Shown piece by piece: positions 3,678 through 5,385 of a stretch of 7,322 nt of DNA. Source of the stretch: a bacterium UBA3734 (GTDB taxonomy: Bacteria > Bacteroidota > Bacteroidia > Bacteroidales > Bacteroidaceae); NCBI GenBank assembly GCA_002372575.1, contig DFHC01000012.1:1-7322 (forward strand). The letters run 5' to 3'. The stretch's first letter is position 1, and each line of letters begins with the position of its first letter. The position numbers were made by a program, and so were the translations under genes. A model generated the notes under the pieces. The model saw only the letters and a list, made by a program, of their open reading frames with translations. It searched no databases and was not told the DNA's origin.

Positions 3678-4001
3678 ATGATGAAAAGAATCATTATCAT
3701 CCTCGTGGCGCTCGTCAGCACGCTGACCATGAGTGCCGACAACAAGAAGAAAGCGAAAAACGTGGAAAGCGTCACGTTCAACGTGTCGATGCACTGCGAA
3801 AACTGCCAGAAAAAAATCGAGGGAACCATCGGTTGGGAAAAGGGCGTGAAGGATCTGAAGACCGACCTCGAAAAGAAAACCGTCACCATCAAGTTCGATG
3901 TCCGCAAAACCAATAAGCAGCAATTGCAGGAGAAAATCCAAGAGCTGGGCTACGACGTGGAAGAAGTGACTGCCGAAGAAAAGAAAATCGAAAGCAAATA
4001 A
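3678..4001 (+). CDS. Exported heavy-metal-associated (HMA) domain protein
   Basis: This 107-residue protein has a signal peptide at residues 1-20 (MMKRIIIILVALVSTLTMSA), a lysine-rich linker, and one HMA domain at about 30-97. The metal site is MHCENC (Cys40, Cys43), matching the M-x-C-x-x-C loop used by copper chaperones and P-type ATPase domains to hold Cu(I) or similar soft metals. The closing GYDVEEV strand is also typical, and the tail is charged (EEKKIESK). There is no lipobox, so it should be a soluble periplasmic protein. It follows the TonB receptor by 19 bases, with no Shine-Dalgarno, and probably shares its transcript. The likely job is to take metal that the receptor imports and pass it on or buffer it. 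An alternative start one codon later (3681) changes little. Domain confident; metal identity inferred. Confidence 0.9.
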   Translation: MMKRIIIILVALVSTLTMSADNKKKAKNVESVTFNVSMHCENCQKKIEGTIGWEKGVKDLKTDLEKKTVTIKFDVRKTNKQQLQEKIQELGYDVEEVTAEEKKIESK

Positions 4002-4011
4002 ACGCTGGCTG

Positions 4012-4204
4012 ACACAAAAATCAGTGCCGCGACTCTCAACGAGCCACGGCACCGATTCTGTATGTTTAACCTTTCATTTCGTACAAATGGTAGCCTCACG
4101 GCCTCCATTGTCACCTGTTAAACAATCTGTTTAATTACCTTAAACCTAATAACTAAAAACCTAAATCTATTACTACTAACCTAAACAATCTATTAACCTT
4201 TTTC
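4012..4204 (-). ncRNA. Putative small RNA gene, about 190 nt, unrecognised family
   Basis: On the minus strand a TACCTTTG promoter box (4217-4210) precedes a transcript that would start near 4204 and end in a T-tract near 4016. The 5' part (4205-4130) contains no C and carries UUAGGUU-type motifs at about 4185, 4165 and 4149. After it come a small hairpin, GUUUAA/UUAAAC (4145-4140 with 4134-4129); an 8-bp helix, UGUUUAAC (4124-4117) with GUUAAACA (4070-4063); inside that helix, an 11-bp hairpin at 4111-4083 capped by a GUGA (GNRA) tetraloop; and last the terminator hairpin. The first hairpin and the 8-bp helix do not overlap, so both can form. Wobble pairs in the GNRA hairpin and the terminator exist only on this strand. 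No convincing reading frame is present. It converges on the HMA gene, with 3' ends about 10 bases apart. I do not recognise it as tmRNA, SRP RNA or RNase P RNA; 6S RNA or a paralogous Bacteroidales sRNA family remain possible. Confidence 0.68.
4016..4059 (-). terminator. Intrinsic terminator of the small RNA
   Basis: On the minus strand, 4059-4041 pairs without bulges with 4035-4017, giving 19 bp around the loop GUUGA. Four pairs are G-U wobbles (4058/4018, 4053/4023, 4046/4030, 4044/4032). On the plus strand these become A-C mismatches. The minus strand continues through TTTTT (4020-4016, partly inside the stem) and then GTGTC. The plus-strand side is followed only by a weak T-bias. The strand assignment to minus is therefore well supported; it may also act weakly for the HMA operon coming the other way. 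Confidence 0.75.
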
Positions 4205-4209
4205 TGGTG

Positions 4210-4217
4210 CAAAGGTA
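4210..4217 (-). promoter_or_regulatory. Bacteroidetes-type -7 box for the small RNA
   Basis: The minus strand reads TACCTTTG, an exact match to the Bacteroidetes -7 consensus TAnnTTTG. A start about 6 bases further on would fall near 4204, just where the C-free stretch begins. At the expected -33 distance the minus strand is a T-run (around 4240-4235) without a clean TTTG, so the upstream element is weak. No protein gene follows on this strand, which supports an RNA product. Confidence 0.55.
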
Positions 4218-4277
4218 CGACGATTTTCCACACGAAAAAACATTTTCGGTGATTTTATGCGAAAAAAGTGGGTTTTC

Positions 4278-4291
4278 TTGATATAAATCAA
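4278..4291. promoter_or_regulatory. FNR/CRP-type palindrome between divergent promoters
   Basis: TTGATATAAATCAA is a perfect TTGAT-N4-ATCAA palindrome, identical to the classical FNR consensus half-sites; the symmetry extends one base each side (C at 4277, G at 4292). Its centre is about 80 bases from the inferred start of the small RNA (near 4204) and about 84 from that of the transporter (near 4368). Regulators of the CRP/FNR family occur in Bacteroidetes, but which one would bind here cannot be told from the window. Confidence 0.5.
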
Positions 4292-4354
4292 GTATTGTTT
4301 GCGCACACAACGAATTTTCTTACTTTTTTTGAATGTTTTTTGCATAAAAATTAC

Positions 4355-4362
4355 TACTTTTG
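4355..4362 (+). promoter_or_regulatory. Bacteroidetes-type -7 box for the transporter gene
   Basis: TACTTTTG matches TAnnTTTG and is followed by CAGCC. The nearest TTTG upstream is at 4328-4331, 23 bases away, somewhat more than the usual 19-21. Transcription would begin near 4368. This excludes the TTG codon at 4360 as a start for the transporter and leaves a leader of only some 15-35 bases. Confidence 0.6.
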
Positions 4363-4401: not shown

Positions 4402-5385
4402 ATGCCTAACATCAAGAAAATCAGCCCCATCAGAATCCTGAAAGACTGGACGCTTCCCGTCGCCATGACGATGGGAACACTCATCTATCTGCTCTTTGCC
4501 AACATAGACGCCTTCGACCCCATTGCGCAGCAGGCTGGCCCGTTTTTCGACAAGATTCTGCCGCTGTTCATGTTCTTCATCCTCTTTGTCACGTTCTGCA
4601 AGGTCAATTTCCACAAGATGCGCGCCGTAAGGTGGCATTTGTGGGCGGGTGTGGTGCAGGTGCTGCTCATCGGCGTTGTTATGGCGGTGATTCTGGGCTA
4701 TCAGCTGCAGGGCAGCACGCTGGTGTTCATGGAGGCGATACTCGTGTGCGTGGTGGCACCGTGTGCGGCGGCGGCACCCGTCGTCACGCAGAAGCTGGGC
4801 GGCAGCCTCGAGCAGATGACCACCTACACGTTCATGTCGAACTTCCTCACAGTGCTGTTTATCCCCATCTGTTTCCCGCTGATTGAAAAGGGCGAGAGCA
4901 TGGGGTTCTGGGAGGCATTTCTTCAGATTTTCTATGGTGTGACGCTCGTTTTGGTCGTTCCGATGCTGCTGGCTTACGTCGTGAAGCATTTTTTCAAGCC
5001 GTTGCATCGGCGCATCGTGTCGGTGAAAGACCTTTCGTACTATCTCTGGGCCATTTCACTTGTCATCGTCACGGGTACCACGGTGAAAAATATCTGTCAG
5101 GCCGACACTTCGGTGCTTTTCCTCGTCGGCACGGCGCTGACAACGCTCGTCATCTGCCTCGGACAATACGCCATAGGCCGACAAATCGGGCGACGCTTCA
5201 ACCATACCAATGAGGCCGGACAAGCACTCGGACAGAAGAACACAGCCTTTGCCATCTGGATTGCCTATACCTATTTGCATCCCCTCTCGTCGGTGGGGCC
5301 GGGATGCTATATTCTATGGCAAAACACGGTGAATTCCATCGAAATCTATCAACGGAAAAAAGAGGGAAAACTGCTTAAAAGCTAA
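4402..5385 (+). CDS. BASS-superfamily (bile acid:sodium symporter-like) transporter
   Basis: This 327-residue inner-membrane protein has ten hydrophobic segments at roughly 16-35, 50-66, 77-98, 103-126, 136-158, 168-195, 209-230, 235-262, 275-295 and 299-321, the fold of the BASS superfamily. Family-like features include the small-residue stretch VAPCAAAAPVV in the fourth segment and GQKNTAFAIWIAYTYL with LSSVGPGCYILWQN near the end. BASS proteins carry organic anions such as bile acids, pyruvate or pantoate, usually with sodium. The region that should match the sodium-binding E-x-G-x-Q-N motif reads A-L-G-Q-K-N (275-280), so the coordinating glutamate appears absent and coupling may differ. 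I chose the ATG at 4402; an in-frame GTG at 4384 has AAGGA 9 bases ahead and is a real alternative, while the frame's earlier TTG lies inside the promoter. It is monocistronic, and its stop is 2 bases from that of the opposing receptor. Substrate unknown. Confidence 0.82.
   Translation: MPNIKKISPIRILKDWTLPVAMTMGTLIYLLFANIDAFDPIAQQAGPFFDKILPLFMFFILFVTFCKVNFHKMRAVRWHLWAGVVQVLLIGVVMAVILGYQLQGSTLVFMEAILVCVVAPCAAAAPVVTQKLGGSLEQMTTYTFMSNFLTVLFIPICFPLIEKGESMGFWEAFLQIFYGVTLVLVVPMLLAYVVKHFFKPLHRRIVSVKDLSYYLWAISLVIVTGTTVKNICQADTSVLFLVGTALTTLVICLGQYAIGRQIGRRFNHTNEAGQALGQKNTAFAIWIAYTYLHPLSSVGPGCYILWQNTVNSIEIYQRKKEGKLLKS

Follow-up and report, generated by a model that had tools for sequence, protein, structure and literature searches.

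A predicted small RNA gene family of Prevotella in the broad sense, with an FNR-type palindrome upstream of its promoter box

The locus and the predicted RNA

The stretch of DNA analysed here, called the window, is 7,322 nucleotides long. The predicted small RNA (sRNA) unit lies on its minus strand, in the spacer between a gene for an HMA-domain protein and a gene for an SBF-family transporter (Table 1). A GH125 alpha-mannosidase gene is found at 131-1594, and TonB-receptor, HMA and transporter genes are nearby. By its gene content, the window appears to be an ordinary-looking nutrient- or metal-uptake neighbourhood.

Table 1. Features at the predicted sRNA locus, in window coordinates (a dot in the strand column marks a palindrome)
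Feature	Position	Strand	Basis or remark
HMA-domain gene	3678-4001	+	domain match
Predicted small RNA, about 190 nt	~4205 to ~4015	-	R1 covariance model, box spacing, T-run
Terminator T-run	4016..4020	-	sequence
Intrinsic terminator stem-loop, conserved tip GCTCG..GAGT	4021..4055	-	96.1% of cells paired; double changes in 12/14 pairs
Conserved GTTAAACATA element	4061..4070	-	identity 0.95 in 59 copies selected for carrying the element
Hairpin 1 with GTGA (GNRA-type) loop	4086..4109	-	coordinates; 93.0% of cells paired; double changes in 6/9 pairs
FopS/GibS seed-like stretch GTTTTTAGTTATTAGGTTTAAGGTAATTAAACAGATTG	4123..4160	-	local alignment 19.5 vs shuffle mean 9.8; 0/2000 as high
Near-invariant UAG-rich leader core, predicted seed region	4145..4198	-	mean identity 0.98, 59 copies
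-7 promoter box TACCTTTG	4210..4217	-	TAnnTTTG; coordinates
-33 element position	4238..4240	-	family consensus TTG; TTT in the window
Predicted CRP/FNR-type operator TTGATTTATATCAA (minus-strand reading)	4278..4291	.	first base 74 nt upstream of the box
Second palindrome TTGTTTGCGCACACAA, predicted protein-binding site	4295..4310	.	coordinates
-7 type box TACTTTTG of the divergent SBF-family transporter gene	4355..4362	+	sequence coordinates
SBF-family transporter gene	4402-5385	+	SBF domain match

The first-pass annotation had read a TAnnTTTG box, a compositionally distinct leader, a GNRA hairpin and a terminator in this spacer, and all four have been located on the minus strand. It had placed the RNA start near 4204; the spacing of 12 nt between the first base of the FopS model and its box puts the expected start at ~4205, a shift of one base. 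The product length of about 190 nt given there agrees with the 4015-4205 span between the box-derived start and the T-run. The family covariance model described below (R1) matches the window copy at 4015-4217 on the minus strand with 200.2 bits.

The minus strand folds with a predicted energy of -59.5 kcal/mol (z -6.42), a stability reached by none of 200 shuffles. The plus strand folds well too (-35.7, z -5.60; 0/200 shuffles equally stable), so folding energy alone cannot pick the strand. The strand of the predicted unit is set instead by the box, the T-run and the homologues, and it is minus. The strand had originally been argued from wobble pairs, four of them in the terminator; three G-U pairs are counted in the 4021-4055 stem, and a fourth is gained if the stem extends into its A/T flank. 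A simple terminator scanner gave no call for the 4021-4055 hairpin in the window. The reading as a stand-alone minus-strand sRNA gene with a predicted promoter and terminator is strongly supported by the box, the covarying helices and the sharp ends seen in the homologues.

A small-protein reading was dropped, as a closed frame common to the copies is absent inside the unit. Over 59 copies, the longest closed frame there measures 17 aa in the median and never exceeds 33 aa, and the 54-aa open frame of the window (4114-3950, minus) continues beyond the terminator.

Distribution, conservation and covariation of the family

The window copy is a member of an RNA-gene family in the genus Prevotella in the broad sense, to which its host belongs; the host is thus no Bacteroides. 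A plain DNA search matched 33 of 60 genomes, the window's own included, all of them in the window's genus. With the R1 covariance model, which was built from 17 copies, matches were obtained in 368 of 398 sampled genus genomes, including 170 of the 175 good ones, while 30 gave no match. A family-wide sample of 121 genomes gave 12 matched genomes. Seven of these, every genome of the genus in the sample, scored >=127 bits, and the other five, out of 114 outside the genus, matched weakly (35-42 bits). In the order-wide sample of 198 genomes, the 197 other than the window's own gave no match. Once a search covered more than 40 genomes, stricter filters applied and not all candidates were scored (six per genome in the 398-genome search), so the copy numbers of 1 to 6 matches per genome are lower bounds. 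The predicted family has paralogues in some genomes.

An exact-word scan found at least 118 stretches. Among the matches listed, 78 of 80 also fit the covariance model, the two misses being a Tannerella MAG and Pseudalkalibacillus, and the locus sets used below for neighbours, box and operator draw on those 80. The carriers among the matches listed include P. jejuni, P. bivia, P. denticola, P. oulorum, Segatella copri, S. baroniae, Hallella, Xylanibacter ruminicola and many MAGs. Two matches in plasmid records are both on large Prevotella replicons. A phage origin was dropped after no match was found in phage records. In viral contigs, 23 word matches yielded four model matches (99.3, 67, 31.6 and 25.6 bits); the first two, contigs L322 and L325, are clear family matches, that of L325 being incomplete, and may stem from the margins of prophages or from host DNA that was binned wrongly.

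The Rfam covariance search proposed for the spacer returned no family at gathering score in the window, and the same holds for eight other family loci. Matches below the cut-off (mir-8521, SQ2397, BTnc231, GibS, FopS and others) have not been counted as membership. No published account of this sRNA family was recognised in a non-exhaustive search of the literature. With 170 of 175 good genomes matched and no Rfam match, the family is a strong candidate for a core regulator. Prevotella and the genera split from it are major gut and oral bacteria in which RNA regulation is poorly charted.

Neighbouring genes were compared at 146 loci. This set, the 108-locus set used for the box and the 147-locus set used for the operator count some places twice because the same genome was fetched by different searches; the window itself is present as both L001 and L213. 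The commonest neighbour is a divergent glycosyltransferase, of which one protein cluster occurs at 80 of the 146 loci and 63 ORFs are the first divergent upstream neighbour. At loci of this type, ispF or PorV is often close by. The SBF transporter replaces the glycosyltransferase in the window, an arrangement that is rare elsewhere among the 146 loci (SBF neighbour in L186, L188 and L189; HMA neighbour in L187 and L188). The sRNA unit adjoins unrelated genes in other genomes.

For the conservation measures, copies with too little flank or without GTTAAA[C/A]ATA were dropped before the box count; removal of identical 3' halves then reduced 108 copies to 95, and removal of copies longer than 226 nt left 59 main-type copies for the pairing count. 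In a structure-free alignment of these 59 copies, 94.9% of cells in the two helices are paired, against 36-47% in controls with slid helices. The compensatory changes that the first-pass annotation had proposed to look for are present as double changes in 18 of the 23 pairs of the two helices. The double-change cells number 209, as compared with 60.6 in shuffles, and none of 500 shuffles reached any of five pairing measures, a comparison in which the relatedness of the sequences remains.

Identity over the 59 copies is 0.98 in the leader core, 0.95 in GTTAAACATA (a value biased by choice, since the presence of this element was a selection criterion for main-type copies), 0.78 in both hairpins and 0.36 just past the T-run. 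The ends of the predicted unit are sharp, with conservation breaking off past the T-run and the box lying upstream. A loss of the promoter box and of the helices without compensation, which had been named as an observation against the gene, is not seen in the main type: its loci keep the box (108/108), and the 59 copies compared keep the helices with compensation.

Three further structural ideas were dropped. A tandem repeat of FopS seeds in the leader was rejected after its self-repeat score was reached in 67 of 300 shuffles. A long-range helix between TGTTTAAC in the linker and GTTAAACATA was discarded because, in a by-eye reading of the alignment, the partner varies while GTTAAACATA stays constant. 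RNAalifold also joins the promoter box to the beginning of the leader by a 6-pair helix, which would not form in the RNA with a start at ~4205; model R1 nevertheless contains it.

Beside the main type, L053-L062, L016 and L223 are paralogues, most of which have a longer UAG-rich leader and lack GTTAAACATA (L059 has it), and several of which carry the second palindrome between the -33 and -7 elements. L218-L222 and L225 are short relatives from other genera or further paralogues. They have related UAG-rich leaders, which suggest a wider sRNA superfamily.

Promoter box and upstream palindromes

The TAnnTTTG box is found upstream of all 108 main loci (95 distinct 3' halves). Its distance to the leader core is 27-29 nt in 81 loci and 48-98 nt in 27. 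At 21-23 nt upstream of the box, the family has a TTG that is 92-100% conserved per base over 65 distinct upstream sequences; the -33 element of the window is imperfect in this respect.

New in this analysis is an FNR-type palindrome at a fixed distance upstream of the predicted sRNA box. For the operator count, identical upstream regions were removed, which reduced 147 regions to 131. The exact pattern TTGA-N6-TCAA is present in 98 of the 100 main copies kept after dereplication and in 27 of 31 other copies; 97 of those 100 main copies have a site with at most one mismatch at -74/-75 from the box. The consensus of 117 distinct sites is TTGATTTANRTCAAGAA. An equally good match anywhere in 160 nt occurs in ~10% of shuffles, a descriptive comparison and no independent test, since the motif was found in the same sequences; the FopS regions and the 400 kb sample described below are the independent parts. 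The first palindrome travels with the predicted sRNA and not with one neighbour. Six glycosyltransferase genes carry their own box at the same spacing from the palindrome, which may therefore serve both directions at such loci.

The second palindrome, TGTGnnCGnACACA, is carried by 76 of the 100 main copies when one mismatch is allowed, and its usual position is -92 to -94. It is placed at -18/-19, within the promoter, in 11 of the 31 other copies, and a one-strand pattern search of 400 kb of genome G016 gave none. In the window, both palindromes fall between the sRNA box and the box of the SBF transporter gene.

The first palindrome is shared with some copies of FopS. Among 28 distinct FopS upstream regions, seven have it at 73-74 nt from the box, of which five come from this genus and two from a single other genus, and the remaining 21 lack it; in this count, the 100-nt flanks of L043-L052 only just reach the palindrome position. 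An evenly spaced sample of 400 kb from genome G016 holds three TTGAYN4RTCAA sites, of which the one that precedes FopS alone has a box at that spacing. Over 2.0 Mb, palindrome-box pairs precede the family 156 times, FopS 7 times and something else 11 times, a count that is not unbiased, since most loci had been selected as family carriers. Six of the 11 belong to the glycosyltransferase genes divergent from the sRNA and one, L024, is closely followed by a family copy; the pairs at L220 and at one L225 site precede related leaders, while L148 and another L225 site look unrelated. The fixed FNR-type palindrome, common to this family and some FopS copies, is a concrete lead on how these sRNAs may be activated.

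Proteins with a CRP/FNR-type HTH (PF13545) were found in 39 of 40 genus genomes, 37 of them above the cut-off, and the 30 HTH stretches compared fall by eye into three classes. Cur/BT4338 has been dropped as the regulator; the site given for it in the available text, wwwTATGTTnTAnAACATAwww (PMC6989115, PMC3878776), differs from the palindrome here.

Possible function and relation to known small RNAs

Based on these observations, we lean, with some reserve, towards a genus-wide predicted sRNA family that is switched on by a CRP/FNR-type regulator and probably pairs its 5' leader with mRNA starts. RNA is presumably made from the unit, and the regulator would act at the palindrome upstream of the box, a putative activator site, to turn the sRNA on. 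The leader, a probable seed, would then pair with mRNA start regions and control translation, and hairpin 1 and GTTAAACATA would stabilise the RNA or bind a protein. Genes for outer-membrane sugar uptake, or other nutrient genes, may be among the targets.

The leader is viewed as a predicted seed by analogy with FopS and GibS, which are reported to act at mRNA starts. FopS is a Bacteroides family of paralogous, PUL-repressing sRNAs of ~65-70 nt that reportedly pair with SusC-type mRNAs close to the start codon and so block their translation (PMC11697453). GibS, of ~145 nt, is likewise reported to bind the start regions of its targets (PMC7366714). The mean unpaired probability predicted for the leader core is only 0.43, which makes it no more than partly open. 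A hint of such pairing comes from counts, within -20 to -1, of 9-mers that complement the consensus leader. For 214 starts without a close upstream gene, 14 were found against 5.6 expected (8/200 shuffles as high), and a second set of 153 such starts gave 15 against 5.4 (5/300). The result is weaker over all 366 starts of the first set (17 against 10.4; 28/200), and with G016's own leader the signal is gone (9 against 8.2; 129/300). For SusC start regions, enrichment in G016 is weak at most (mean z -0.57/-0.85, n=15), and the window's own genome shows none (+0.27/-0.19, n=10).

An alternative, which we think has a modest chance of being right, is that the RNA is mainly a protein-binding decoy, whose UAG-rich leader and hairpins titrate an RNA-binding protein in place of pairing with mRNA. 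TAG occurs eight times in the leader, as compared with a mean of 2.87 in 2000 base shuffles (sd 1.55, max 9), and the terminator tip and GTTAAACATA are conserved in sequence as well as in pairing. In Bacteroides, RbpB has been reported to bind single-stranded parts of sRNAs (PMC11697453). However, RRM_1, the known type of partner and the one searched for, turned up in just 2 of the 40 genus genomes and not at all in the window's own 58%-complete genome, with a positive control in Bacteroides ihuae. An RRM protein of RbpB type is therefore no general partner, as 38 of the 40 genomes gave no RRM_1 match, and an RbpB sponge has been dropped as a general mechanism. FopS is present in 37 of the same 40 genomes, so an RRM partner does not define FopS outside Bacteroides, and the RbpB model, worked out in Bacteroides, cannot be applied as it stands to the Prevotella group.

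The RNA could also be SrcF of S. copri or one of its relatives, a kind already described in one species; we regard this as improbable. SrcF is an sRNA needed by S. copri for colonization, with reported effects on colonization and on nutrient-uptake genes including PULs (PMC11814227). The identity is conceivable because S. copri carries a family member, a strong copy in strain iA622 (L106, 171.0 bits). By the description available for SrcF (PMC11814227), to which the comparison is confined, the two are alike in host group, and the reported link of SrcF to nutrient uptake would suit the RNA here; a non-exhaustive literature search found no published srcF sequence.

It is very improbable that the RNA is of the 6S type and binds RNA polymerase, as the first-pass annotation had considered. 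Its length of ~190 nt, intergenic position and genus-wide occurrence would suit a 6S RNA, but the window has no Rfam family at gathering score, and the consensus fold is two separate hairpins, no long rod. RF00013 and RF01685 were each found in 0 of 60 genus genomes, a weak search because the RF01685 control was positive nowhere and the RF00013 control was positive in five genomes, none of them Bacteroides. Hardly credible at all is that the hairpin only terminates the plus-strand operon, with the remainder plain spacer: it begins ~20 nt past the HMA gene stop and the plus strand forms it too, but T-run and promoter box lie on the minus strand and the unit recurs beside unrelated genes.

Returning to the leader-pairing sRNA, a broader proposal may be made, although we consider it rather doubtful: a single CRP/FNR-type sensor would drive a Prevotella RNA regulon, made up of this RNA and some FopS copies, and would retune translation from nutrient-uptake genes with no Hfq, ProQ or RRM chaperone involved. 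The FNR-type operator would be the site of action of the regulator proposed for FopS. The operator pattern TTGAYnnnnRTCAA fits the FNR/DNR box TTGATnnnnATCAA and the HcpR box TTGACnnnnGTCAA, and it differs from GTAACnnnnGTTAC, which the available part of the same source gives for HcpR2 (PMC1274295).

FopS has been described in Bacteroides and is widespread in Prevotella-type genomes; it was found in 93 of 100 genus genomes (50/50 good ones) and in 113 of 121 family-wide genomes, and the G016 copy lies on stretch L278. Whether the window RNA belongs to a FopS-type family had been left open by the first-pass annotation. By Rfam score it is neither FopS (RF04319; 16.6 bits, cut-off 56) nor GibS (RF04182; 19.6 bits, cut-off 115), but the window leader resembles the seeds of both. 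The GibS 5' consensus aligns with the window leader at a score of 21.0, which none of 2000 shuffles equalled. Among five copies compared, the seed similarity is weaker in L003, L007 and L010, where 5-15 of 1000 shuffles did as well, and L023 shows none (383 and 573 of 1000). L220, from another genus, scores 24.0 against FopS (0/2000 shuffles as good), aligns with the window leader as well (0/2000) and carries its own palindrome-box pair. In our reading, the leader may be of common descent with the FopS/GibS seed for part of the family, which does not amount to FopS membership.

As compared with GibS, the window RNA has a similar length, a long 5' region and a terminator, and differs in its TAnnTTTG box, the GibS promoter motif being non-canonical as far as the source describes it (PMC11697453). 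With FopS it shares the canonical -7 box, the presence of several copies per genome and a 5' seed-like stretch followed by a terminator. Unlike FopS, which the available account gives as ~65-70 nt with one terminator hairpin, it is about 190 nt long with two covarying hairpins, and it adds a near-invariant leader half, hairpin 1 and GTTAAACATA.
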